In this document: positions 34,072-46,931 of the stretch, one piece after another | Numbering within the stretch: position 1 is the stretch's first letter | How the letters are laid out: every line of letters begins with the position of its first letter | Source of the DNA: Clostridia bacterium | Lineage (GTDB): Bacteria; Bacillota; Clostridia; Christensenellales; Aristaeellaceae | Length of the DNA: 64,000 bases | Direction: 5' to 3' | Assembly: GCA_017522345.1 (NCBI GenBank) | Contig: JAFWZN010000079.1 | Location: 62,001 to 126,000, forward strand | Made by a program: the position numbers and the translations under genes | The notes under the pieces: generated by a model | Told to the model about the DNA's origin: nothing | Seen by the model: the letters and a program-made list of their open reading frames with translations, nothing else | The model's database searches: none

Positions 34072-36057
34072 ATGAAGCGCATATTGGCTTTTTTTATGCT
34101 CTTTGCCATCATCGTGGGGCAAATGCCCTCGACCGCCTATGCGGAGGTGGACCGGGAAGCAAACAAACAGATTATCTTTGATTACATAGTCGACGTATTG
34201 GAACTCACGCCTGCGGCTGCGTGCGGCATTTTAGCCAATATCAGGGCAGAATCGAACTTCAATCCTGAGGCTGTCGGGGACGGCGGCGACGCCTACGGCA
34301 TATGCCAATGGAATTCCCGGCGCGACAGCATGGTCAAATTCTGCGAGACAAACGGCTATGGAGAATGGACGAATATTTACGGTCAGCTGGCCTATCTCGC
34401 ATACGAGCTTGAAAACAACAAAAAAAGCGTCGGCGAGTTTCTGAAGGATGTGCCGAACACCGCGCAGGGCGCATACGATGCGGCGTATCATTTCTGCTAT
34501 TATTACGAGATTCCGTCCAACCGCGTTACCAAGGGCAAGCAGAGAGGCACAAGCGCCGTAAATACCTTCTGGCGCGACTATTACGGCGGCGAGACGGCGG
34601 TATATACGATTTTATACGATGCAAACGGCGGAACGAACGCGCCCAAATCGCAGACAAAAACAGAGGGCGTTCCCACGCTGATCACGTCCGGCGAGCCTGT
34701 GCGGGATGGATATGCCTTGGTCGGTTGGGCGCTTAAGCCGGATGCGGTTTCGGTTGATTATCGGGCCGGAGACGAATTTACAGGCAATCGGGATGCGACG
34801 CTTTACGCCGTGTGGGAGCGCGTGATTTCGGATGAAACGCCGGCGGAGGCGACTGAAGAATTCAACGGACACACGTATGAATTGTATAAAGGCGCTTATA
34901 CGTGGACGTACGCAAGCGCTTTTGCGGAAAAAAAGGGCGGATATCTGTTAACGGTTGATAGCGAGGCGGAATACAGCGCCGTCAGCGCGCTTGCCTCGGA
35001 ATTGGATGGCGACTTCTGGCTGGGCGCGGAGCTTGCAGGCGGCAATTGGCAGTGGGTAACGGGCGAGGCGTTCAAGGATACATTTGCGTCCTCAAAGTGG
35101 GCGCAGGGCGAACCTTCTGCGCTTTACGGGCCGACGGAGCGCGGTAAGCTTGCGCAGCGTCAGGATGGAAAATGGATCGATCTGAATGCTTCCTCGCTTT
35201 TGACGACAGGCTTCATCGTAGAATACGGAAGCTGGACGCAGGAAGCGTTTCCGATGTATGAAATCAGGGTTTCTTCGTCTTTGAATCTGCGCGAGGGGCC
35301 CGGCACAAGCTATGATTCTTTGGATGTTCTATATAACGGAGAGATCATCACGATTGTTGATACCGTACCCGGCACAAGCTATGATTGGGGATGGGGTTAT
35401 ACTGCGAGCGGCAAAACCGGCTGGTGCGCAATGAAAATCCCCGACTATATGGCGGCTGTCAATGGTATCGACGAGGAAACCATGCTCGTTTATACGCTCT
35501 ACGAAGAAGGCTGCGCCGTCGCAGGCTATCGGGGCGCGGAAAACAATCTGGTCGTCCCTGCGCATATCCAGAGCCTTCCTGTGCTTGCCGTTTTTGAAGG
35601 CGCGTTTTCCTCGTCTGACGCGCCTGATACGATTCGGCTGCCTGCTTCCGTTCGCATGGTTCAGCCGGATTCCTTAAAAAGCGGCGCGAAATACATTGTG
35701 CCGCTTGGAAGCGACGCGCATTTGGCGGCTGCTAAAGCCGATGCGCTATACGAATGCGTTTATCCGGAGCATACGCTCTGCCCGCCGGACGCGCTTTCGG
35801 AAATTCTGGAGGACGCGTTTTCGGGCGCGGCGAACATTGAATGCGTGAATCTTTCGGGCACGCGCGTTCGCTATATTGCCTCCGGCGCGTTTGTGCGAAT
35901 GGAGAAGCTCAAGTACGTGCATCTGCCTGAAACGGATCTGACGATTGAAGAGAACGCGTTTGATCTGACGGCAGGCGTCGTGTTTATCGTTAAAGCCGGA
36001 TCGGCGGCTGAAAAATGGGTGCAAGCATCCGGCGCGGATTATATATGCGTTCCATAG
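34072..36057 (+). CDS. Secreted multidomain protein: lysozyme-like, InlB-type repeat, C-type lectin, SH3, leucine-rich
   Basis: 661 residues. Signal peptide 1-24. Residues 25-175 match the phage-tail lysozyme domain (AACGILANIRAESNFNPEAV, AYGICQWNSRRDSMVKF), which probably cuts peptidoglycan; the Glu in RAESNF is the candidate acid. Residues about 180-255 are an InlB B-type repeat (YDANGGTNAPKSQTKTEG, DATLYAVWE). Residues 262-385 look like a C-type lectin domain (GHTYELYKGAYTWTYASAFA, GDFWLGAELAGGNWQWVTGE). Residues about 400-465 form a bacterial SH3 domain (SSLNLREGPGTSYDSLDVL). Residues 475-661 are BspA-type leucine-rich segments (AFSSSDAPDTIRLPASVRMV). No sorting signal is seen. It likely remodels or binds cell walls or host glycans. 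Confidence 0.82.
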   Translation: MKRILAFFMLFAIIVGQMPSTAYAEVDREANKQIIFDYIVDVLELTPAAACGILANIRAESNFNPEAVGDGGDAYGICQWNSRRDSMVKFCETNGYGEWTNIYGQLAYLAYELENNKKSVGEFLKDVPNTAQGAYDAAYHFCYYYEIPSNRVTKGKQRGTSAVNTFWRDYYGGETAVYTILYDANGGTNAPKSQTKTEGVPTLITSGEPVRDGYALVGWALKPDAVSVDYRAGDEFTGNRDATLYAVWERVISDETPAEATEEFNGHTYELYKGAYTWTYASAFAEKKGGYLLTVDSEAEYSAVSALASELDGDFWLGAELAGGNWQWVTGEAFKDTFASSKWAQGEPSALYGPTERGKLAQRQDGKWIDLNASSLLTTGFIVEYGSWTQEAFPMYEIRVSSSLNLREGPGTSYDSLDVLYNGEIITIVDTVPGTSYDWGWGYTASGKTGWCAMKIPDYMAAVNGIDEETMLVYTLYEEGCAVAGYRGAENNLVVPAHIQSLPVLAVFEGAFSSSDAPDTIRLPASVRMVQPDSLKSGAKYIVPLGSDAHLAAAKADALYECVYPEHTLCPPDALSEILEDAFSGAANIECVNLSGTRVRYIASGAFVRMEKLKYVHLPETDLTIEENAFDLTAGVVFIVKAGSAAEKWVQASGADYICVP

Positions 36058-36107
36058 CAAAGCGACATAATTAACGAAATGGCAGTAGAAACTCCGGGCT
36101 GTTGTGG

Positions 36108-36113
36108 TATAAT
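36108..36113 (+). promoter_or_regulatory. Extended -10 promoter of the CotH operon
   Basis: TGGTATAAT, 68 bases before the TTG start at 36181. The -35 box is poor (GTAGAA), as is usual with an extended -10. Confidence 0.6.
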
Positions 36114-36180
36114 GAATACGTGTAATTTTGTCTACGAATAGGATGCGCATTTTTGAAGCGCAGATATATGGAGGTTCACC

Positions 36181-39100
36181 TTGCAGAACAAGAAACCGAC
36201 CGCAAATCCCGCCCGCCGCCCGCAGACGACGAATCAGTCCGGCGCGAGGATGGCGCAGCCTTCCAAAAAGCCCGATCAGGCGCGTCCCGCGCCAAGAGCG
36301 CAGGCGAAAGCAGCGCCTGCATCCGGCCGCCCAAAAAATGTCAGCGGAAAGCTTGTTGTTTTAGCCGTTATCGCTTTTATCATCGTAAGCTTTATTCTGC
36401 AGGCTAAATTCCCCAATGGCATCGGCGGAAACACGCAAAGAGCCGTGCCCGCCATCGACGTTGCGCTTTCCATCCGCATCACCGAGGTCATGAGCTCCAA
36501 CGGCTCGGCGGTTCAGGATGAAAACGGAGAATTTGCCGACTGGTTTGAGGTTGCAAACGTATCGGAGCAGGCGATCAATCTTCACGGCTATAAAATCGCG
36601 CAGGACGCTACGCATGTTCTTCAGTATTTTGAGTTCCCGGATCACACCCTGGCGCCCGGCGAGCGCACGATTGTTTTTGCGACCAATACCTCCAAAAACA
36701 ATTTCGGCTATGCTTATCACGCGCCCTTCAAGATTTCTTCCGCGGGCGACACGCTGATTTTGTTTAACCCCTACGACCATGCGATTCAAACCTTGAACGT
36801 GCCCAACCTTTCCTCCAACCAGTCCTACGCCGAGGTAAACGGCGAATGGGTGGTTACGAGCGAATACACGCCCCGCATGGAAAACACCTCCGAAAACTAC
36901 ATCCTCGCAAGGGGCGAGAGGACGCTGACGGAAAGCCAGATCAGGATCACCGAATTCATGGCGAAAAACGTCAGCTACACGCCCGATGAAAACGGCGAGT
37001 ATGTGGATTGGATTGAAATTCACAATACCTCCGATTACGCGGTCAGTCTGAACGGCTACGCGCTGTCGGATTCTGAGGAAAACCTGCAGAAGTGGCGCTT
37101 CCCGAATGTGTCCATCGGCGCGGGCGAATACATGATCATCTACGCATCCGGCTACGACCGTGCAAACGCCGGAAGCAGCCTCCACACCAATTTCCGTCTG
37201 TCAACGGAAAGGGAATGCCTGATTCTGACCAATGCCTCGGGAAGCATGATCGACTATGTCGCATACGACCTGCTGAAGGCGGATCAGTCCTATTCCCGTC
37301 AGGCGGATGATTCGTGGACCACGATGCTTCCTCCCACTCCGGGAAAATCCAACAGCTATGAGAGCGCCGCGCTGATCGATGGTCAGTTCGCGGCGCAAAA
37401 TGCAACAGGCCTTTATATAAACGAGGTCATGGCTTCGACCACGCAGGTCAATTCCTCCGGCGCTTCCTACGATTGGGTCGAGCTTTACAATCGTTCCGGT
37501 CAGATGATCGATCTGAGCGGCTGGGGGATTTCGGACGAGCCGGATAAGCCCCGAAAATGGCAGTTTCCGGAAGGCAGCAGCGTGGCTTCCGGCCAGTATC
37601 TGGGCGTTCTGATGTCGGGCCTTGATAAAAAGGAAGGCTCGTATTACCACGCAGGCTTTAAGCTTTCGTCTACGGAGGGCGGAACCTTGGTGCTTTCGAT
37701 GCCGGATGGCACGATTGTTGACCGAGCGCCGCTCACAAATCAGTATGCCAATATCTCCTACGGACGCATAAACGGCAAAAGCGGCTTCTATTACATGACG
37801 GCGACCACGCCGCTGACCGCAAACGCGCAGAACGGCTATTTGAGCCGTCTTCTCGAGCCGCAGTTCAGCGTGCAGGGGGGAGTATTTGAATCCATCGCCC
37901 CATTCACAGTCACCCTGACCGCGGAGCCCGGCGCCACGATCTACTACACGCTGGATTCTTCAACGCCGGATCCGACCAATCTGAACGGCACAACCTATAA
38001 GCCGGATCCGAAAATCGCGTCCTATGTATCCTCGAAATATCAAACATATGTGTATTCCGAGCCGATTGTCGTTCCGGCGACAACCATTGTTCGTGCAATC
38101 GCCGTAAAGGACGGAGCTCTTTCGTCGCTTGTCAATACGCAAAGCTATCTTATGGGCGTAAAGCACACAATGCAGATATTCTCATTGATAATGGATCCCG
38201 TCGATCTTTGGGATTACAACAACGGCCTTTATGTTTACGGCCCCAACGCCTATACGGAATATCCTTACGGAGCGCTGAATCAGGGCGCGAATTTCTGGAT
38301 GACGTGGGAAAAGGACGCTAATATTGAGCTTTTCTCGCTGGAGGGCGAAACCGTTCTTTCGCAGGGCTGCGGCGTGAGACTTCACGGTCAGTACAGCCGC
38401 GCGGAGGATCAGAAGCCCTTTAAGGTGATCGCCCGAAGCAAATACGGAAACAATCGATTTAATGCCCAATTGTTCAGCAATCGCGATTACACCGAATATC
38501 AGTCCTTCGTCCTTCGAAATTCCGGACAGGACAACGAAAAAACGCGCATGCGCGATTCGATTCTGACTTCGCTCACCGAGGGGTCCTCGGTCATGTATCA
38601 GGAAACGGAGCTCGCGATTGTATATCTGAACGGCGTTTATTGGGGACATTATAACCTGCGCGAGCGCATCAACACCTTCTCCATTTGCCAGTGGGAGGGC
38701 TGGGATGAGAGCGTCAAGGATTCGATGGATCTGATTAAGGCCAACACCAAGGTCATGCAGGGTTCCGTGGACGACTGGCTCGCGATTAAAGACTGGTATG
38801 CGAAAAACGGCATTGAAACGGCGGAAGAGCTTGAGTATGTCAAGCAGCATATCGATGTTGATAACTATCTTGAGTATATCGCCGTGCAGATGTATACCGG
38901 AAACACCGATTTGCTCAACGTAAAGAAATACAAGAGCGATGAAGTCGATGGAAAATGGCGCTGGGTTTTGTTTGACATGGACTGGGCGTACGTTACCGAC
39001 ACCAACTCCGTCGGCAGGTGGCTCACCCCCGGCGGCATGGGATCGGGCAATAAAACGGACAACTCGCTTTTCATTGCCCTGATGAAAAACCCCGTGTGCA

Positions 39101-39393
39101 AGGATCAGTTCCTGACCTATTTTGCCGAGCATCTGCGCACAAACTGGACGAGCGAGAACGTATTAAGGCTGATTGACGAACGCTACGAACTCCTTGCGCC
39201 GGAACTGGATCAGCATCTTGAACGCTGGAATGTTTCCCGTTCTACCTTTGATTCGGAAATGCGCGAATTCAAGAGATATGCTCAGAATCGTCCGGGACGA
39301 TTGTTGTATTTCTTCTCACAGGTGTTGTCCGAATCTGAAATGCAGCATTATTTCGGCGATATTCTTGAGTCGGTTGAAATGCTTTCAAAATAA
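36181..39393 (+). CDS. CotH-kinase family protein with three lamin-tail domains
   Basis: 1070 residues. A Pro/Ala/Lys-rich basic cytoplasmic head (1-56) is followed by one membrane helix (about 58-76, VVLAVIAFIIVSFILQA), so the rest is outside. Three lamin-tail (LTD) domains follow (about 98-190, 255-345, 410-510; SIRITEVMSSNGS, QIRITEFMAKNVS, GLYINEVMAS). A chitobiase-type beta domain is at about 570-655 (EPGATIYYTLDSSTPDPTN). The CotH fold is at about 700-1010, with NGVYWGHYNLRERIN and the metal-site-like VLFDMDWAYV. CotH in Bacillus phosphorylates spore coat proteins. TTG start with GGAGG. It is followed by VTC and DUF4956 genes. Confidence 0.88.
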   Translation: MQNKKPTANPARRPQTTNQSGARMAQPSKKPDQARPAPRAQAKAAPASGRPKNVSGKLVVLAVIAFIIVSFILQAKFPNGIGGNTQRAVPAIDVALSIRITEVMSSNGSAVQDENGEFADWFEVANVSEQAINLHGYKIAQDATHVLQYFEFPDHTLAPGERTIVFATNTSKNNFGYAYHAPFKISSAGDTLILFNPYDHAIQTLNVPNLSSNQSYAEVNGEWVVTSEYTPRMENTSENYILARGERTLTESQIRITEFMAKNVSYTPDENGEYVDWIEIHNTSDYAVSLNGYALSDSEENLQKWRFPNVSIGAGEYMIIYASGYDRANAGSSLHTNFRLSTERECLILTNASGSMIDYVAYDLLKADQSYSRQADDSWTTMLPPTPGKSNSYESAALIDGQFAAQNATGLYINEVMASTTQVNSSGASYDWVELYNRSGQMIDLSGWGISDEPDKPRKWQFPEGSSVASGQYLGVLMSGLDKKEGSYYHAGFKLSSTEGGTLVLSMPDGTIVDRAPLTNQYANISYGRINGKSGFYYMTATTPLTANAQNGYLSRLLEPQFSVQGGVFESIAPFTVTLTAEPGATIYYTLDSSTPDPTNLNGTTYKPDPKIASYVSSKYQTYVYSEPIVVPATTIVRAIAVKDGALSSLVNTQSYLMGVKHTMQIFSLIMDPVDLWDYNNGLYVYGPNAYTEYPYGALNQGANFWMTWEKDANIELFSLEGETVLSQGCGVRLHGQYSRAEDQKPFKVIARSKYGNNRFNAQLFSNRDYTEYQSFVLRNSGQDNEKTRMRDSILTSLTEGSSVMYQETELAIVYLNGVYWGHYNLRERINTFSICQWEGWDESVKDSMDLIKANTKVMQGSVDDWLAIKDWYAKNGIETAEELEYVKQHIDVDNYLEYIAVQMYTGNTDLLNVKKYKSDEVDGKWRWVLFDMDWAYVTDTNSVGRWLTPGGMGSGNKTDNSLFIALMKNPVCKDQFLTYFAEHLRTNWTSENVLRLIDERYELLAPELDQHLERWNVSRSTFDSEMREFKRYAQNRPGRLLYFFSQVLSESEMQHYFGDILESVEMLSK

Positions 39394-39415
39394 CGAACGC
39401 AGGAGGGAGTTTCAT

Positions 39416-40126
39416 TTGCGAAACGAAGGACACGCTTCCTTTCCTGAGCGGCATGAGCTGAAGTATTTTATCAACAAGGGCGACATGATCGCTCTGGGTC
39501 ACAAGCTGGGCGGCTTTATGAACGCCGATTCCCATGCCGATGAAAAAGGCGAATATTTCATCCGCTCCCTGTATTTTGACGACGCGTACAACACCGCCTA
39601 CTACGATAAAGTGAGCGGCGTGATGGGGCGAGACAAGTACAGAATCAGAATCTATAATCTGTCCGACGATGTGATTTATCTGGAAAGAAAACGCAAGATC
39701 GGCGATTATATCCAAAAATCCTCCGCCCGCATTTCCAGAAAGCTGACGGAGCAGCTGATGGCCGGAAACCCAAAGGGGCTTTTAAAGGCGGAGCATCCTC
39801 TGCTTGACGATATGTACCGCGAAATGCGCACCAAGCTTTTAAGGCCCGTCGTCATCGTGGATTACACGAGAGAGACTTTCGTGCTTCCGATTGAGAACGT
39901 TCGCGTTACATTTGATAAGCACCTTAGAACCGCCGTCCGTGCAACCAATCTGTTTGACAAAAACCTTTTGACCGTGAGCCCTTTGGACGACGGGCGCGAG
40001 ATTTTAGAAGTCAAATACGACCATTTCCTGCCGGATACGGTTTCCGCCCTTCTGAGAGATACGCCCGCTGTGCGCAGCGCCATATCGAAATATGTCATCT
40101 GCCGCAGATTCGAGCCGCTTGCCTGA
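39416..40126 (+). CDS. VTC-domain protein (polyphosphate polymerase-like)
   Basis: 236 residues, made of a single VTC tunnel-fold domain. In yeast, Vtc4 makes polyphosphate from ATP. Basic and acidic tunnel positions are visible: ERHELKYFI, IRSLYFDDAYN, YRIRIYN, YLERKRKIGDYIQKSS, VIVDYTRETFV and LEVKYDHFLPD. The last two include the metal-binding acidic residue seen in the family. No ATG suits; TTG at 39416 has AGGAGGG 7 bases before it. It lies 22 bases after the CotH gene. The substrate and whether it makes polyphosphate are not established. Confidence 0.88.
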   Translation: MRNEGHASFPERHELKYFINKGDMIALGHKLGGFMNADSHADEKGEYFIRSLYFDDAYNTAYYDKVSGVMGRDKYRIRIYNLSDDVIYLERKRKIGDYIQKSSARISRKLTEQLMAGNPKGLLKAEHPLLDDMYREMRTKLLRPVVIVDYTRETFVLPIENVRVTFDKHLRTAVRATNLFDKNLLTVSPLDDGREILEVKYDHFLPDTVSALLRDTPAVRSAISKYVICRRFEPLA

Positions 40127-40190
40127 TCAAAACGCATTTTCGCCCGAAGGGCGATTTGATAAAACCAAAGATTGAAAGGGGATATTCCTC

Positions 40191-40850
40191 GTGAAGAACA
40201 TCATTGCTGACATCTTCCAAGCCAACACCGTAAGCTCCACCTCCTGGATCAACGTTCTTTTCATGGTCGCCGTCGCTTTCGGCGTAGGTCTTTTCGTATA
40301 CTGGGTGTATAAGAACAATTTCCGCGGCGTTATGTTCTCTTCAAATTTCGGCCTCACGCTCGTTCTTATGACCACCGTTACCGCGCCCGTCGTTATGTGT
40401 ATCAAGGACTCCCTCCAGCTCTCCATGGGTATGGTCGGCGCGCTGTCCATCGTTCGTTTCAGAACCGCCGTTAAAGATCCCCTCGATACCGCCTACATGT
40501 TCTGGGCGCTCACCATGGGTATCTTAATCGGCGCGGGTCAGTACATTCTGGCCGCCATCACTGTTGCCGCTATCGGCGCGCTCATCTTCCTGCTTCGCCG
40601 CATCACCTCCAAGGGTGCGGACAGCTATCTGCTCGTTATGCGTCTTTCCCAGAATGCCGAATCCAGCGCCTCGCAGCTTATGAGACAGCTTAAGTACATG
40701 AAGCTCAAGAGCAAGACCATCACCGGAAACGGCGTTGAAGTTACCTATGAAATCCGCGTTGAAAAGACGGAAGCCTTCTTAAACAAGCTCCTCTCCATCA
40801 ACGGCGTACACGAAGCCAGCCTCATCGCCTATCAGAGCGAAACCGTCTGA
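40191..40850 (+). CDS. DUF4956 membrane protein
   Basis: 219 residues. About four membrane helices lie in the first 140 residues (WINVLFMVAVAFGVGLFVYW, FGLTLVLMTTVTAPVVM, YMFWALTMGILIGAGQYILA). The conserved cytoplasmic motif is GALSIVRFRTAVKDPLDTAY. A soluble C-terminal ferredoxin-like domain (about 150-219) follows. GTG start after AAAGGGG. The family typically sits beside VTC and CotH genes, as here. It probably forms the membrane part of that module; its role is unknown. Confidence 0.88.
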   Translation: MKNIIADIFQANTVSSTSWINVLFMVAVAFGVGLFVYWVYKNNFRGVMFSSNFGLTLVLMTTVTAPVVMCIKDSLQLSMGMVGALSIVRFRTAVKDPLDTAYMFWALTMGILIGAGQYILAAITVAAIGALIFLLRRITSKGADSYLLVMRLSQNAESSASQLMRQLKYMKLKSKTITGNGVEVTYEIRVEKTEAFLNKLLSINGVHEASLIAYQSETV

Positions 40851-40858
40851 TGAATAAC

Positions 40859-40910
40859 AAAAAATACCCGTTCGAAGCGCGTCATCGGCGCATCGAACGG
40901 GTATTTTTTT
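40859..40910. terminator. Bidirectional terminator after the CotH operon
   Basis: A stem of at least 15 bp (AAATACCCGTTCGA with its complement) with a 17-base loop, ending in seven T's; A's lie on the other side. It serves the plus operon and the convergent gene at 40931. Confidence 0.87.
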
Positions 40911-40930: not shown

Positions 40931-43615
40931 TCAGGAAGCGGACAGGTTTCTTCCATTGTTATAGGTCAATGTGTCCCATGTCCAGTTGCTGCTCCACATC
41001 CTTGAATACAGGTCGGCGTTGATTTCAGGGGCATAATCAAACTGGTAGGTCACGTCGTTGACCGGCATGGCGCCCCGCGCGGAGAAGCCGTTGTCGTATC
41101 GGATATCCATATCGACGCCCCTTGCGTTGCCGATTGCATAGGCGACCTCGGAGACCTGCGCTTCGGTCAGCGGGAATGCGCCGGATTCGACGATGGCGAC
41201 TGCGCATTCACGGAACAATTCCTTGTCCTTCTCATAGACGGGATACTTGACGCGAATGCTCAGCATATACTTAAGAATCGGATCGCCCAAGCCGGAGGTA
41301 TGGTATGAAAAGCTTCCGTATACATCAAAACCGGCGGCCTTCAGCCTTTGAACCATATCATCGCCCATGTGCTTAATAACCTTCAGCATAATCGCCCTGT
41401 CAGGCATATCGGAGAGAAGGTCAAAGTTAAAATGCTGGAGGCTTCCTGCTTCAAAATTCAGGTTGGAAATGGTTTCGGTCATATAGCCGTTCGCGCCGGC
41501 GGAAATCGAATAGATTCCGGCGGGCAGCTTATCGAAGCGGAAGCGACCGTTTGAATCTGTGAGGGCGGTTTTAACGCTTCCATCAGGCAATGTAAGACTT
41601 ATGCTTGCATCCGAGACGAATGATTTTGTATTTTCGTCCGTTACCACACCCTCGACAGTAACCAATTTTTCCTGAATAAGGATCACAAGGCTTTGATTAG
41701 ACACCTCAAACGCTTCGGATGCATCGCCCGATTCGAAAGAAGCGGCTGCGAGGTACGCGCCCGGATACAGGTATGTCGTCAGAGGACTTGACGAATGAAC
41801 CATTTTGTCCTCGCCGATCAGCTTGCTGCCGGAAAGAGCGAGGGGGACGTCCGAAACAGGCGTGCCGTTCATATCCAGCGTATTGATGCTTGTTCTATAC
41901 AGATTGTTCGGACACACGCCGAAGCCGAATTTTGTCTTTCCTTCATGAACGCTGTTTACATCGTTGGCAATGGAATAATACAGATCGCCCAGCTTTACGC
42001 GGACAAGCGTGATGTTTACATCAGCGGGTGTGCCGGAAAGGGTCTCAGAGAGGTCGTATTTAATCGCGCCGCGCGCATTGATATCGAAGAAATAATCCAT
42101 ATCAATGCACCTGTAGCAGGCGTGGTACTGGTTAGCGGAGCCATCCTGCGCGTCAAGGCTTCCGCTGAAGAAGGGCGATTCCGCCTTTCCTTCCAGCAGA
42201 ATACCGGCCTGTCCGCTCAAGCGGCCTTCAACGGCTTTGAACAGATTCAGATTGAGCGAAATCTCGGGGCCGAATTTCAGGGAGAACTTGCCGTCAATCT
42301 CGGCTGTGGAGGAGCATGAGCGGCCTGTGACGGTTGTCCACCCCGAAAGCGGATTATAATGATACCCGTAATTATAGGTCATATCGACCGTGGCCTTTCC
42401 GCCAACCTCGGCGTTTATATTCAGCGGCAGAGAAACCTTCAGATATGCCGGCGCATCAATAAAAGGAATCGAGATGTCGGAATTGTACAAAACAATCTCC
42501 GGAGACTTGTTGTCGATCCATGTGTCGATTTCTTCGCCTAAAAACGCGTTCAGAAGTCCGCTCAGTATGACGTTTGCATCCGCCTCAAAATATCCGCGCT
42601 GTTTGTCATATTTGAAATTGGCGCGAACGTCGACCTTTATATCATAGCCTACCGTAACCGTTTCATAGGAAATGCTTCCCTTGATGGGAGGAAGCCCGCC
42701 GGTGTCTTCGCCCGGATTTCCACCTCTGCCGCCGTAGACGCCGCCTACCTTGATCAGATCGTACATGTCGGAAAGGTGCACGTTTTCATCTTCGACAATC
42801 GTCACTGTGCCGTCGGCGTTTTCCCGAACGGAGGCGATTTTGACGGGCGTTTGCACGCCGTTTTTATTCAGCAGAACCTTATCGCCTGCATTCAGCGCCT
42901 GCGGCGTTTCAAAGGTATAGCTATTTCCGCTGGCTGTTGCGGAGGCGTTTAAGGGGATGACGTCGCTGCTCAAAACGGCAAAGCCCGAGGGACCGTAATT
43001 CAGCACGGTTCTGGAAGCAAAATCCTCCGGCTTCTGGTTTAAAAATGCTTCGTAATCCGAGGTGTAGTGGTAGTTTATGCGAATTTCACACAGCTCGCAG
43101 CCGCTGAAGTCCTCAAGCGCCGCGCGAAGCGTAAAATACCTCGGAAGCGTTATGGACGGAGGAATGTCCAATGTCAGATTGCTTACCGGACCTTGAACCT
43201 CTGCTTTTTCCGTACTTAATACAGTTTTGCCTTCGTCATCCAAAATGTCTGCGCGGAGTATGCATCTTTCGGATGCCGTAACGATACAGCTGATGACTTT
43301 TTCCCCGGCTTCGTTTTCGCAGATCTCAATAGAAAGCACCTGCGCTTCGACGGAAGGGATGGACTCATCCAGGATTACGTATTTAACGCCTTGCTTTATG
43401 CACCAATGATGCGCATAGCTGTTCATCCATACGCCGAATGTCGCGTTTTCAACGCCCTCAAACGCATCTAATTCGATTTGCGTTAGACTCGGCGAAAGCT
43501 CGATGATGGATTCTTCGCCTTCGGCGTATGCATTTGTTTCGGCATTTGCTGCAGGCGCCGGCAGAATGCTTAAAACCATCAGCGCCGCGAATAAGAGAGA
43601 GAAAAACTTTTTCAT
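40931..43615 (-). CDS. Large secreted protein with a carboxypeptidase-regulatory-like domain
   Basis: 894 residues. Signal peptide 1-25 (LSILPAPAANA, cleavage near 25). The long middle part (about 40-640) is beta-rich and unrecognised. Residues about 650-735 form a carboxypeptidase-regulatory-like beta sandwich (VEGVVTDENTKSF, LTDSNGRFRFDKLPAGIYSI). A further unknown domain ends the protein. No anchor motif or membrane helix is seen. AGGAG precedes the ATG. It is convergent to the CotH operon. The domain usually aids adhesion or extracellular stability, so a surface or matrix role is guessed. Confidence 0.75.
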   Translation of the reverse strand: MKKFFSLLFAALMVLSILPAPAANAETNAYAEGEESIIELSPSLTQIELDAFEGVENATFGVWMNSYAHHWCIKQGVKYVILDESIPSVEAQVLSIEICENEAGEKVISCIVTASERCILRADILDDEGKTVLSTEKAEVQGPVSNLTLDIPPSITLPRYFTLRAALEDFSGCELCEIRINYHYTSDYEAFLNQKPEDFASRTVLNYGPSGFAVLSSDVIPLNASATASGNSYTFETPQALNAGDKVLLNKNGVQTPVKIASVRENADGTVTIVEDENVHLSDMYDLIKVGGVYGGRGGNPGEDTGGLPPIKGSISYETVTVGYDIKVDVRANFKYDKQRGYFEADANVILSGLLNAFLGEEIDTWIDNKSPEIVLYNSDISIPFIDAPAYLKVSLPLNINAEVGGKATVDMTYNYGYHYNPLSGWTTVTGRSCSSTAEIDGKFSLKFGPEISLNLNLFKAVEGRLSGQAGILLEGKAESPFFSGSLDAQDGSANQYHACYRCIDMDYFFDINARGAIKYDLSETLSGTPADVNITLVRVKLGDLYYSIANDVNSVHEGKTKFGFGVCPNNLYRTSINTLDMNGTPVSDVPLALSGSKLIGEDKMVHSSSPLTTYLYPGAYLAAASFESGDASEAFEVSNQSLVILIQEKLVTVEGVVTDENTKSFVSDASISLTLPDGSVKTALTDSNGRFRFDKLPAGIYSISAGANGYMTETISNLNFEAGSLQHFNFDLLSDMPDRAIMLKVIKHMGDDMVQRLKAAGFDVYGSFSYHTSGLGDPILKYMLSIRVKYPVYEKDKELFRECAVAIVESGAFPLTEAQVSEVAYAIGNARGVDMDIRYDNGFSARGAMPVNDVTYQFDYAPEINADLYSRMWSSNWTWDTLTYNNGRNLSAS

Positions 43616-43800: not shown

Positions 43801-44814
43801 TTATTTTTTGAATCCGTTGGGGTTGTTCTTCTGCCAGGTCCAGATGTCGCGGCACATATCGATCAAGTTGCGTCTGGCTTTCCAGCCCAGAACCCTTTCG
43901 GCTTTCTCGGGATTGGAATAGACCATCGCAAGATCGCCGGGACGGCGCGGACCGATTTTGTAGGGAACCTTGACGCCGTTGGCCTCTTCAAACGCCTTGA
44001 CCATGTCAAGAACGCTGTAGCCGACGCCGGTACCTAAGTTGATCGCATCGCAGCCGGTGAACCTCTGGGCGTATTCCACGGCGGCTACGTGGCCTTCAGC
44101 AAGATCCATTACGTGGATGTAATCGCGCACGCCGGTTCCGTCGGGCGTGTCGTAATCATCCCCGAACACCGTTAAAAACTCTCTGCGGCCTACTGCCGTC
44201 TGGGAGACATAGGGCATTAGGTTGTTGGGAATGCCGCTGGGATCCTCGCCGATTTTACCGCTTTCGTGCGCGCCGACGGGATTAAAGTATCTTAAAAGAA
44301 CGATGGACCAATCGGAATGGGCAACGGATACATCGCGCAGGATTTGCTCGTTCATGTACTTCGTCCATCCGTAGGGATTGGTGCAGCCGAGCCTGCCGCC
44401 TTCGGTGAGCGGAACCTCGTTATCAGCGGAATACACGGTGGCGGAGGAGGAGAAGATCAGCTTTTTGACGCCGGTCTTCACCATGGCTTCGGCCAGATGA
44501 AGGGTGGAAACGAGGTTGTTCTCGTAATATTCCAGCGGCATTCGGACGGATTCGCCCACGGCCTTTAGGCCTGCAAAATGGATCACACTGTCCACATTGT
44601 GCGCTTTGATAATCTCAATAACCTTTTCGGTGTCGCACACATCCGCCTCATAGAAGGGGATTTCGCGCCCGGTGATCTCGGTTACGCGAACGAGGGATTC
44701 CTTTGAGGAATTGTCGAGGTTATCGACAACGACGATGTCATAGCCTTTGTTTAAAAGGCAAAGGCAGGTGTGGGAGCCGATGTAGCCGGCGCCTCCGGTG
44801 ATCAAAATGCTCAT
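43801..44814 (-). CDS. galE: UDP-glucose 4-epimerase
   Basis: 337 residues. Interconverts UDP-Glc and UDP-Gal, and in many Firmicutes also the N-acetyl forms. The NAD motif is ITGGAGYIGSHTC at the N-terminus. The catalytic pair is Ser/Thr in FSSSATVYSADNE and Tyr-x3-Lys in YGWTKYMNE (about 148-152). The ATG at 44814 overlaps the kinase stop by ATGA and follows GGAGG by 10 bases. It is the last gene of the nucleotidyltransferase-kinase-galE operon. Confidence 0.96.
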   Translation of the reverse strand: MSILITGGAGYIGSHTCLCLLNKGYDIVVVDNLDNSSKESLVRVTEITGREIPFYEADVCDTEKVIEIIKAHNVDSVIHFAGLKAVGESVRMPLEYYENNLVSTLHLAEAMVKTGVKKLIFSSSATVYSADNEVPLTEGGRLGCTNPYGWTKYMNEQILRDVSVAHSDWSIVLLRYFNPVGAHESGKIGEDPSGIPNNLMPYVSQTAVGRREFLTVFGDDYDTPDGTGVRDYIHVMDLAEGHVAAVEYAQRFTGCDAINLGTGVGYSVLDMVKAFEEANGVKVPYKIGPRRPGDLAMVYSNPEKAERVLGWKARRNLIDMCRDIWTWQKNNPNGFKK

Positions 44815-45878
44815 AATCTGGCAGCCTCCTCCTTGATGATCTTCGCCATCTCGTCCCATTTCTGTTCCATGTCGTACACGAGCTTGAGCTGCGTGCGGCA
44901 ACGGTCCAGATTATGCTTTTCCCTGTGAATTCTGAAGTAGACGTCGCCCTCAAGATAGTCGGTCAAAAAGCGGATGCCGCATTCATAGGTCATCATCTTG
45001 GCGCCCATGGGCAGGGTTTCGATTTCCTTTTCGGTCAGCTTCTTTCCGCAGGCGGAAAGGAAGCCGCGGGTGTAGGCGCGGAACATGTCAAGGGACATGG
45101 ATACCTTATCAAGATCCAGCTCGTCTTCAGTCGCGGTGGAAGCGCCGAAGCGGATGGAATCGCCGAAATCGTTGGCTGCGAGGCCGGGCATGATGGTGTC
45201 AAGGTCGATAACGCAGATGGGCTTTCGGGTGGCTTCGTCGAAAAGAACATTGTTGAGCTTGGTGTCGTTGTGAGTCACGCGCAGCTTAAGTTCGCCCTTT
45301 TCAAGAAGCCCCTTCATGTATTTTGCTTCCTCGGCGCGTGCAAGCGCGAATTCGACTTCCGCCTCGACCTCGCTGAGTCGGCCCATTTTATCTTTTTCGA
45401 TGGCGTTTAGAAGGTTCTTTACGCGGTTTTCGGTGTCGTGGAACATGGGAATGGTTTCGGAAAGCTTCGATGCGTCAAATTCGGAAAGCAGGTTCTGGAA
45501 ATTGCCGAATGCTTCGGCGCTCATTCTGAACTCGTCCTCGTTCTCCGCTCTTTCAAGGCAGACGCTGTCGTCCACGAAGTGATACATGCGGTAGTAGCCG
45601 GTGTCGTCGTGATAGAAGCTGTTTCCGTCCTTCGTTTTGACCAGCTCCAGCGAATGTCTCGGATTGGGATCCTTTTCGCGCAGCATCTCCGTGACCAGAC
45701 GGATATTCTCCATGAGAGAGGGAATGTCCTTAAAAATCACGTCGTTAATGCGCTGGAAGGTGTATTTGTTTCCGAGCTTGTCGGTTACGAGATAGGTGCG
45801 GTTAATGTGGCCGTTGCCCATCGGTTCGATGGTTGCGGGCAGGGCTTTTGTGTCAAAATTCATTGCAGCGTTCAGCAT
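44811..45878 (-). CDS. Anomeric sugar kinase of the phosphotransferase (APH/NahK-like) family
   Basis: 355 residues with the aminoglycoside/choline-kinase fold. The catalytic loop is VTHNDTKLNNVLFD (about 206-219) and the metal Asp is in CVIDLDTIMPG. An ATP-binding N-lobe (EPMGNGHINRTYLVTDKLGN) precedes it. This pattern matches N-acetylhexosamine 1-kinase (NahK/LnpB) of Bifidobacterium, which makes GlcNAc-1-P or GalNAc-1-P. A galactose or other hexose substrate is also possible. Context with a nucleotidyltransferase and GalE supports formation of a sugar 1-phosphate. It follows the nucleotidyltransferase gene after 15 bases. Confidence 0.82.
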   Translation of the reverse strand: MLNAAMNFDTKALPATIEPMGNGHINRTYLVTDKLGNKYTFQRINDVIFKDIPSLMENIRLVTEMLREKDPNPRHSLELVKTKDGNSFYHDDTGYYRMYHFVDDSVCLERAENEDEFRMSAEAFGNFQNLLSEFDASKLSETIPMFHDTENRVKNLLNAIEKDKMGRLSEVEAEVEFALARAEEAKYMKGLLEKGELKLRVTHNDTKLNNVLFDEATRKPICVIDLDTIMPGLAANDFGDSIRFGASTATEDELDLDKVSMSLDMFRAYTRGFLSACGKKLTEKEIETLPMGAKMMTYECGIRFLTDYLEGDVYFRIHREKHNLDRCRTQLKLVYDMEQKWDEMAKIIKEEAARL

Positions 45879-45893
45879 TTTCGTGTTTCTCCT

Positions 45894-46814
45894 TTACCAG
45901 AGGTTTTCGGGATATTCGCCGTTTTCCTTCATCTTGGCGATGTTCGCTTTGGTGTTGGGCAGATCCTCAAGATACGTCATTCCGAACCAGCGCGCCTTGG
46001 TGGGAAGCACCTTGAACACGGCCTTTTTCTCGCTTAAAAGCTGGTTGGAGACGGAGGGGAGGTAGTATTCTTTCTTTAAGGGATTTGCGGAAAGCTCGTC
46101 TTTCAGGAAGGAAGCGAACCGCGCCTGCATTTCGTCGAAAATGTTGTTTTTGAATACCCAGAGGTTCAGAGAAACAGTGGTATCGCCGGAGATTTCCGTC
46201 CAGGTTTCGCCGTCCTCGGTAAACGCGGCGTCTTCTCCGCGCGCTTCGATCTTGGTGCGCTCGACAACGCTTACGAGGTTTCCGTTTTCATTTACCGTGC
46301 ATACGCCGCGCGCGACGGAGCCGAAGGGGGTCATGGTGTTTCGAAGGTTATAGCCGACCATGGCGTGCTCAGCTTCATTTGCGCTTTCGTCGATGAAGCG
46401 GGAAGCGGCTTCGTAGGCGTCGCGTCCGTAGAAGTCGTCAGCGTTGATGACGACAAACGCGCCGGGAACTTCGTCCCTTGCGCAAAGCGCGGCATGACCC
46501 GTGCCCCACGGCTTTTCACGACCTTCGGGAATGGCGAAGCCCTCAGGCAAATATTTGTCAAGCGTCTGATAGGCGTAAGCGACTTCGATGTGTTTTTCCA
46601 CGCGGCTTCCGATAACCTGATGGAACATCTCGCGGCTTTCGGGCTTGATGACAAATACAACCTTCTCAAAGCCCGCGCGAATTGCGTCATAAATGGAATA
46701 ATCAATAATCAGATGGCCGGCGTCGTCCACAGGAGTTACCTGCTTTTTGCCCGCGCCTGCGCCGAAACGGCTGCCAAGTCCCGCCGCCATGATTACAAGA
46801 GTTTTTTTCTCCAA
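45894..46814 (-). CDS. Sugar-1-phosphate nucleotidyltransferase
   Basis: 306 residues. It makes an NDP-sugar from a sugar 1-phosphate and an NTP. The signature loop is LVIMAAGLGSRFGAGAGKKQ, with acidic metal site VVINADDFYG and substrate region MVGYNLRNTMTPFGS. A TTG at 46814 is chosen as start because GGGAG lies 9 bases before it and the product starts MEKKTLVIMAAG; the ATG 9 bases upstream has its ribosome site too close. It opens the operon with the kinase and GalE. By context it would use UTP with the kinase's product, but base and sugar specificity are not proven. Confidence 0.85.
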   Translation of the reverse strand: MEKKTLVIMAAGLGSRFGAGAGKKQVTPVDDAGHLIIDYSIYDAIRAGFEKVVFVIKPESREMFHQVIGSRVEKHIEVAYAYQTLDKYLPEGFAIPEGREKPWGTGHAALCARDEVPGAFVVINADDFYGRDAYEAASRFIDESANEAEHAMVGYNLRNTMTPFGSVARGVCTVNENGNLVSVVERTKIEARGEDAAFTEDGETWTEISGDTTVSLNLWVFKNNIFDEMQARFASFLKDELSANPLKKEYYLPSVSNQLLSEKKAVFKVLPTKARWFGMTYLEDLPNTKANIAKMKENGEYPENLW

Positions 46815-46931
46815 GATTGTCATCTCCCGATTATCAGCTGCAAGATCAAGCAGCTGTATTCTTTTTATCATACACCAAACATTTTACCATAAATCGCCGA
46901 AAAATACATCCCCCATATTGTAAAATCATGC

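Follow-up and report, generated by a model that had tools for sequence, protein, structure and literature searches.

A stand-alone, lamin-tail variant of the CotH-VTC-DUF4956 gene set of Pel loci in a Clostridia bacterium

The genes for a CotH-family protein, a polyphosphate polymerase and a DUF4956 protein are accessory genes of Gram-positive pel loci in streptococci, clostridia and bifidobacteria, where they occur as cotH-PPP-DUF4956(-DUF4832) (PMC7112168). In Streptococcus intermedius (SIR_1594-1592) deletion of the CotH gene results in less Pel and deletion of the DUF4956 gene in more Pel, aggregation being lowered in both cases, and the authors did not find the cotH-VTC-DUF4956 synteny outside Pel (PMC12345266). 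Adjacent VTC and CotH genes are also present in NELoc-2 of Clostridium perfringens (CP4_0460-0468; PMC2879425), where, by our own reading, a small membrane protein, there called tubulin/FtsZ, is in the putative DUF4956 position, and where further genes follow, including those for a HEAT protein and a chitin-synthase-like GT2. Here we describe a module of the same three adjacent families, again with a CotH predicted to be extracellular, in a 64,000-nucleotide stretch of a Clostridia bacterium (the window; GCA_017522345.1, contig JAFWZN010000079.1, positions 62,001 to 126,000). The module of the window differs from the pel accessory set in that it is not contiguous with pelDEADAFG and its CotH carries three lamin-tail domains (LTDs) and an N-terminal anchor, and it has none of the further genes of NELoc-2. 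The possibility that the window is itself a Pel locus was rejected, as its neighbourhood is free of pel genes and PelF is missing from the genome as assembled. What it contains is a stand-alone, lamin-tail variant of the module already noticed at Pel loci, i.e. in literature that the first-pass annotation of this DNA, made from the letters alone, had missed.

VTC and DUF4956 are a nearly obligate pair and constitute the core of the module. Of 196 genomes of the same class as the host, 101 contain VTC, 100 contain DUF4956 (98 over the cut-off) and 80, among the matches listed, contain CotH. VTC and DUF4956 occur together in 98 genomes, VTC only in 3, DUF4956 only at the cut-off in none, and neither in 95 (Fisher 6e-53, where, as for all P values given here, relatedness is ignored). 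A DUF4956 gene lies within 1 kb of 118 of the 128 VTC matches, on the same strand in 118 of 118, and among the exceptions several are fragmentary or close to the end of a contig. CotH is associated with the pair: among the CotH matches listed, 74 genomes have both CotH and VTC, 6 CotH only, 27 VTC only and 89 neither (odds ratio 41). At least 55 VTC genes have a CotH gene within 3.5 kb and all three genes are together in at least 46 genomes, these CotH linkage counts being lower bounds. As the gene orders C-V-D, C-D-V, V-D-C and C-V-D-C are all found, the order varies while proximity stays, and it is thus proximity that is kept. Moreover, protein distances are correlated across 95 loci (V-D 0.87, D-C 0.75, V-C 0.69; 0 of 2000 permutations as high), which fits a module that travels as a unit, with shared species history contributing. 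The claim of the first-pass annotation that the three families recur together therefore holds far beyond chance. No VTC-DUF4956 gene fusion was seen among the fetched loci, and in control searches all three families were found in Corynebacterium glutamicum and Methanosarcina acetivorans. On a contig labelled Bathyarchaeota (L152 9956-12164), the neighbours of DUF4956 and VTC are LTD-like and Cthe_2159-like. A match on a Hymenobacter plasmid was discarded, the adjoining 235-residue protein not being VTC.

By and large the module occurs independently of Pel, which is new with respect to the literature. PelF is absent from 38 of the 46 listed genomes that carry all three genes, so that the statement that the synteny is confined to Pel fails beyond the set of its authors. 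Genes of several kinds take the neighbouring place: pelF/pelG adjoin 12 fetched modules, a GH-like-HEAT cassette, apparently of the type seen in NELoc-2, adjoins 7 (6 including its GT2), and a Cthe_2159 carbohydrate-binding protein adjoins, in third place, 15 VTC-DUF4956 pairs that have no CotH (e.g. L148 1618-3138). On an annotated Planococcus plasmid the order is polyphosphate polymerase-DUF4956-CotH-hypothetical-HEAT-glycosyltransferase, and on a Pseudobutyrivibrio plasmid CotH-polymerase-DUF4956 is part of a polysaccharide cluster, amid glycosyl-, acyl- and pyruvyltransferase genes. In four Bacilli, namely Paenibacillus abyssi, Paenibacillus sp. PL91, P. caseinilyticus and Rummeliibacillus stabekisii, PelG and CotH are in a single frame, in the order PelG, a hydrophobic stretch with a lipobox-like end and CotH. 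The fusions of P. abyssi and Paenibacillus sp. PL91 showed no internal start that has a ribosome site; that of R. stabekisii has an internal ATG with no clear ribosome site. Loci related to the fusion loci encode CotH as a separate lipoprotein. The fusion, of which we found no description in the limited literature searched on both proteins, links CotH with the export of polysaccharide and locates it outside the cell.

The host genome (2.87 Mb in 129 contigs, 93.8% complete) has a second module, in the order VTC-DUF4956-CotH, on contig 19 (L008 9529-12905), whose CotH begins with a signal-like stretch and has a transmembrane (TM) helix at the C-terminus, with no LTD stretch detected. A lone DUF4956 gene without VTC on contig 52 (L009 9253-9861) is an exception to the pairing; by our own reading its neighbours are LicD-like, flippase-like and ABC-2-like genes. 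Of PelF, PPK1 and PPK2 none was found in the genome as assembled; with neither PPK available as an alternative source, VTC is the only recognised polyphosphate route of the host. The nearest relatives of the window module are from Clostridia, many of them from rumen or gut and some named Christensenella-like. In two close relatives a separate surface protein with two LTDs (L096 2948-4195, L098 10628-11662), which the window does not have, comes after DUF4956.

The first-pass annotation had placed a CotH protein with three lamin-tail domains, a VTC protein and a DUF4956 protein at 36108-40910, and all of them are located there, each with Pfam support. In the CotH protein (131.7 bits against the family profile, cut-off 23.8) Pfam matches comprise three LTD stretches (E 9e-49) and Fn3_assoc/CHB_HEX_C at about residues 575-656. 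The single strong hydrophobic helix behind a basic N-terminus fits a type II anchor, which would place CotH outside the cell as had been proposed. Across lineages CotH appears to be kept extracellular by different anchors, i.e. a type II helix, a signal peptide combined with a C-terminal helix, a lipoprotein or the PelG fusion. A single-sequence search of the PDB with CotH gave no relative, but a profile of 34 CotH domains found the solved CotH of B. cereus (5jd9/5jda, E 2e-43) as sole strong match. Among 88 full CotH domains G822, E828 and D932 are invariant and N908 and D910 nearly so, each of the five being kept in 85 to 88, and D784 is found in 72; all seven core residues listed in Table 1 are present in the window protein and shared with 5jd9. 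Judged by these alignments, the kinase core is intact, phosphotransfer being putative. Fold and core residues are common to the CotH spore-coat kinases, whereas the outside anchor, the LTDs and the company of VTC and DUF4956 distinguish the window protein from them.

The VTC protein (132.1 bits, cut-off 23) consists of the tunnel domain only, with neither TM helix nor signal; a longer mechanical reading frame from 39173 overlaps cotH, and its start is not the probable one. Its AlphaFold2 model (predicted local distance difference test, pLDDT, 94.6) is nearest to yeast Vtc4 (3g3r; Z 19.4, root-mean-square deviation 2.8, 221 aligned residues, 22% identity); tunnel enzymes of other families score no higher than Z 16. 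In each of two sequence samples, with 35 and 63 members, there is no variation at R12, K16, K74, R76, R78, E90, K92, R163, D167, E198, K200 and K225. K16, R76 and R78 align with K200, R264 and R266 of Vtc4, and, on inference rather than residue-by-residue alignment, E198 and K225 would be the equivalents of E426 and K458. Vtc4 is inactivated by changes at R264, R266 and E426 (PMC9911596). By model and alignment the active site is intact and of the Vtc4 type, and the protein probably makes polyphosphate. The catalytic residues on which the first-pass reading of CotH and VTC hinged are thus present in both. The eukaryotic VTC complex (Vtc1/3/4) has the same type of catalytic tunnel domain, and a link between synthesis and a membrane component may be another shared trait, but the window VTC has neither SPX nor a fused three-helix membrane domain, and its partner is a separate, MgtC-like protein. 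At one other locus (L105 10627-11330) the VTC gene is in two overlapping frames, probably owing to a frameshift or an assembly error.

The DUF4956 protein scores 36.2 bits against its family profile (cut-off 30.6). In its model (pLDDT 83) five helices (residues 19-43, 51-71, 75-91, 97-114 and 118-142) precede a beta-alpha-beta-beta-alpha-beta domain (residues 143-217). With Foldseek the C-terminal domain of M. tuberculosis MgtC ranked first and P. aeruginosa MgtC tenth; the MgtC domains 2lqj and 7qa5 in the top rows have modest E values (2e-3 to 4e-3) and are tied with other ferredoxin-like folds. All rows of the structural aligner cover the C-terminal domain, and that the membrane part is unmatched says nothing on its fold. 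A PDB sequence search gave no DUF4956 relative. The NCBIfam profile MgtC/SapB PRK09977 is matched by 52 of 72 DUF4956 relatives at E 0.001 or better (best 1e-9) and by the window protein at E 2e-4 over residues 49-210, with 20.9 bits, far below the cut-off of 214; against PF02308 it reaches 18.2 bits, below the cut-off of 31.4. On these scores we read the protein as a distant MgtC relative at most and not as a family member. It resembles MgtC/SapB/YhiD weakly over most of its length, and its ACT-like C-terminal domain may be like that of MgtC, but it differs from them in its conserved RFR loop and in being nearly always accompanied by VTC. In this loop and after the fifth TM helix there are 3.2 and 2.7 Lys and Arg residues per sequence, compared to 0.2 and 0.05 in the outer loops, which is why the RFR...D loop and the C-terminal domain are predicted to be cytosolic. 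R91 is invariant and R89 is Arg or Lys in 43 sequences picked independently of the RFR motif; the set of 72 was selected by that motif, and its conservation there is not evidence. When the class sample is grouped by CotH partner, the K motif of the loop is present in 29 of 35 against 3 of 20, which may be due to phylogeny.

The genes lie in the order cotH-vtc-duf4956 on the + strand (36181-40850), and the short gaps (22 bp between cotH and vtc, 64 bp between vtc and duf4956) together with the common strand fit the single transcript that had been suggested. The strong terminator at its end is borne out by a folding energy of -29.7 kcal/mol, compared to -12.1 for shuffles (z -7.0); a simple terminator scanner did not flag it. 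The candidate promoter, whose -35 element is poor, is only plausible, since promoter-like sites are no more common in the region than in shuffles (4 vs 4.7).

Table 1. Features of the module in the window and PelG-CotH reading frames at other loci.
Feature	Position	Strand	Description
CotH-family protein, 1070 aa	36181-39393	+	TTG start, GGAGG ribosome site; basic N-terminus, TM helix, three LTDs, Fn3_assoc/CHB_HEX_C, CotH kinase domain
Predicted membrane anchor of CotH, residues 51-79	36331-36417	+	hydropathy peak 2.63, basic residues before
CotH kinase domain, residues 732-1038	38374-39294	+	Pfam E 5e-38; G736, D784, G822, E828, N908, D910, D932
VTC-family triphosphate tunnel enzyme, 236 aa, putative polyphosphate polymerase	39416-40126	+	TTG start behind AGGAGGG; Pfam E 3e-38
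DUF4956 membrane protein, 219 aa, MgtC/SapB-like	40191-40850	+	Pfam E 7e-9; five predicted TM helices and ACT-like C-terminal domain
Possible sigma-70 promoter	36086-36113	+	TAGAAA, 16 nt, TATAAT (36108-36113) with TGG extension; consensus match 10/12
Intrinsic terminator	40862-40910	+	14-bp and 4-bp stem, then seven T
PelG-CotH single open reading frames	L143 5980-9246; L129 6101-9211; L160 6122-9229; L151 6142-9231		internal lipobox-like stretch

Directly 5' of the operon (34072-36057, +) is the gene for a large secreted protein that combines phage-tail-lysozyme, Listeria-Bacteroides repeat, SH3, C-type lectin and LRR_5 domains. Convergent with the operon across the terminator is the gene for a secreted 894-residue protein with a carboxypeptidase-regulatory-like domain (40931-43615, -), beyond which a row of GalE-like epimerase, APH/choline-kinase-like and nucleotidyltransferase genes (43801-46871, -) resembles a surface-sugar or phosphocholine pathway.

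We tentatively propose, as the reading we prefer, a conserved envelope module in which VTC and DUF4956 make or handle polyphosphate and a CotH-type part acts outside on the matrix. From ATP the cytosolic VTC would make polyphosphate or a short chain of phosphates, and DUF4956, with its basic cytoplasmic loop and its ACT-like domain, may dock VTC at the membrane by direct contact and pass on or gate the product. The third part would be extracellular and exchangeable, i.e. an anchored CotH with LTDs here and a CotH lipoprotein, a PelG-CotH fusion or Cthe_2159 elsewhere. Their joint role would lie in the construction or modification of the extracellular matrix, CotH being the part through which phosphate from the core would reach a surface protein or a glycan. 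An extracellular kinase needs a donor, and outside the cell ATP is expected to be scarce or absent; VTC-DUF4956 as source of the phosphoryl donor is thus an attractive, although unproven, reading. The first-pass annotation had likewise considered that VTC and DUF4956 make or export a phosphate polymer or donor while CotH modifies surface proteins: its topology, with CotH outside, VTC in the cytosol and DUF4956 in the membrane, stands, but the link to exopolysaccharide synthases and the MgtC kinship had been missed, and because of the former a role tied to polysaccharides is no less likely than one tied to proteins.

Several points weigh against this proposal. No enzyme activity is reported for these bacterial proteins in the literature searched, and PPK and PelF were judged absent from a genome that is incomplete. 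Within five genes of the window module, and of most of its nearest relatives (57 of 64 CotH-bearing loci), there is no recognised exopolysaccharide synthase, so that a matrix role at the window is suggested only by analogy. DUF4956 resembles MgtC, and no channel homology was found. Finally, deletion of VTC in S. intermedius had no reported effect (PMC12345266); as only the CotH and DUF4956 deletions had effects, a simple donor pathway is not favoured. A bolder form of the proposal, in which VTC and the MgtC-like DUF4956 are a bacterial polyphosphate-export machine, the exported chain being the phosphoryl donor for extracellular CotH kinases, is quite unlikely; if it were true, the machine would represent, next to the eukaryotic VTC complex, another way in which synthesis is coupled to translocation.

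The alternatives overlap, and some of them can hold together with each other. The known roles of MgtC are regulatory, and ACT-like domains often sense ligands. It is therefore possible, if doubtful, that DUF4956 is an MgtC-like membrane regulator, VTC a cytosolic effector of phosphate or ATP level and CotH a signalling part outside, with no polymer crossing the membrane, and this reading is given nearly equal weight because of the MgtC kinship and of the VTC deletion without phenotype. The opposite shifts of Pel, up on loss of DUF4956 and down on loss of CotH, with Pel not being abolished (PMC12345266), would agree with regulation. However, a polymerase site that is intact in every aligned VTC and a nearly one-to-one membrane partner exceed what a sensor needs, and the enzyme-like part outside is left unexplained.

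It is rather unlikely that CotH is a binding or scaffold protein for an exported polymer instead of a kinase, with VTC-DUF4956 serving a separate phosphate function in the operon. The expected lack of ATP outside, the binding suggested by the LTD and Fn3-like domains and the Cthe_2159 proteins that fill the same place in pairs without CotH agree with such a role, but the near-complete conservation of G822, E828, N908, D910 and D932 and their match to the solved kinase argue against it. Unlikely, too, is another activity of the VTC-like protein, i.e. that of a triphosphatase or nucleotidyl cyclase type of tunnel enzyme making no polyphosphate. Such activities do exist in the superfamily, whose members the model matches at Z 12-16, and the missing deletion phenotype would be in line with them; sequence and fold are nevertheless nearest to Vtc4/Vtc2/Vtc3 by a clear margin, and the residues aligned to K200, R264 and R266 are invariant. 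A sporulation operon with a spore-coat kinase as for B. subtilis CotH, to which family name and fold might point, is highly improbable, since the B. subtilis control genome has CotH with no VTC or DUF4956 match, the module is present in non-sporulating streptococci (PMC7112168, PMC12345266), the three families also occur in the Corynebacterium and Methanosarcina named above, and the window CotH is predicted to be anchored in the membrane, facing out.

Thus, the pairing of VTC and DUF4956, the MgtC kinship, the distribution outside Pel, the PelG-CotH fusion and the GH-HEAT-GT2 and Cthe_2159 associations are new for a gene set that appears in the literature with no function assigned so far, and they turn it into a testable question: is there a dedicated bacterial route by which phosphate or polyphosphate may reach the outside for modification of the matrix, and what would feed an extracellular kinase?

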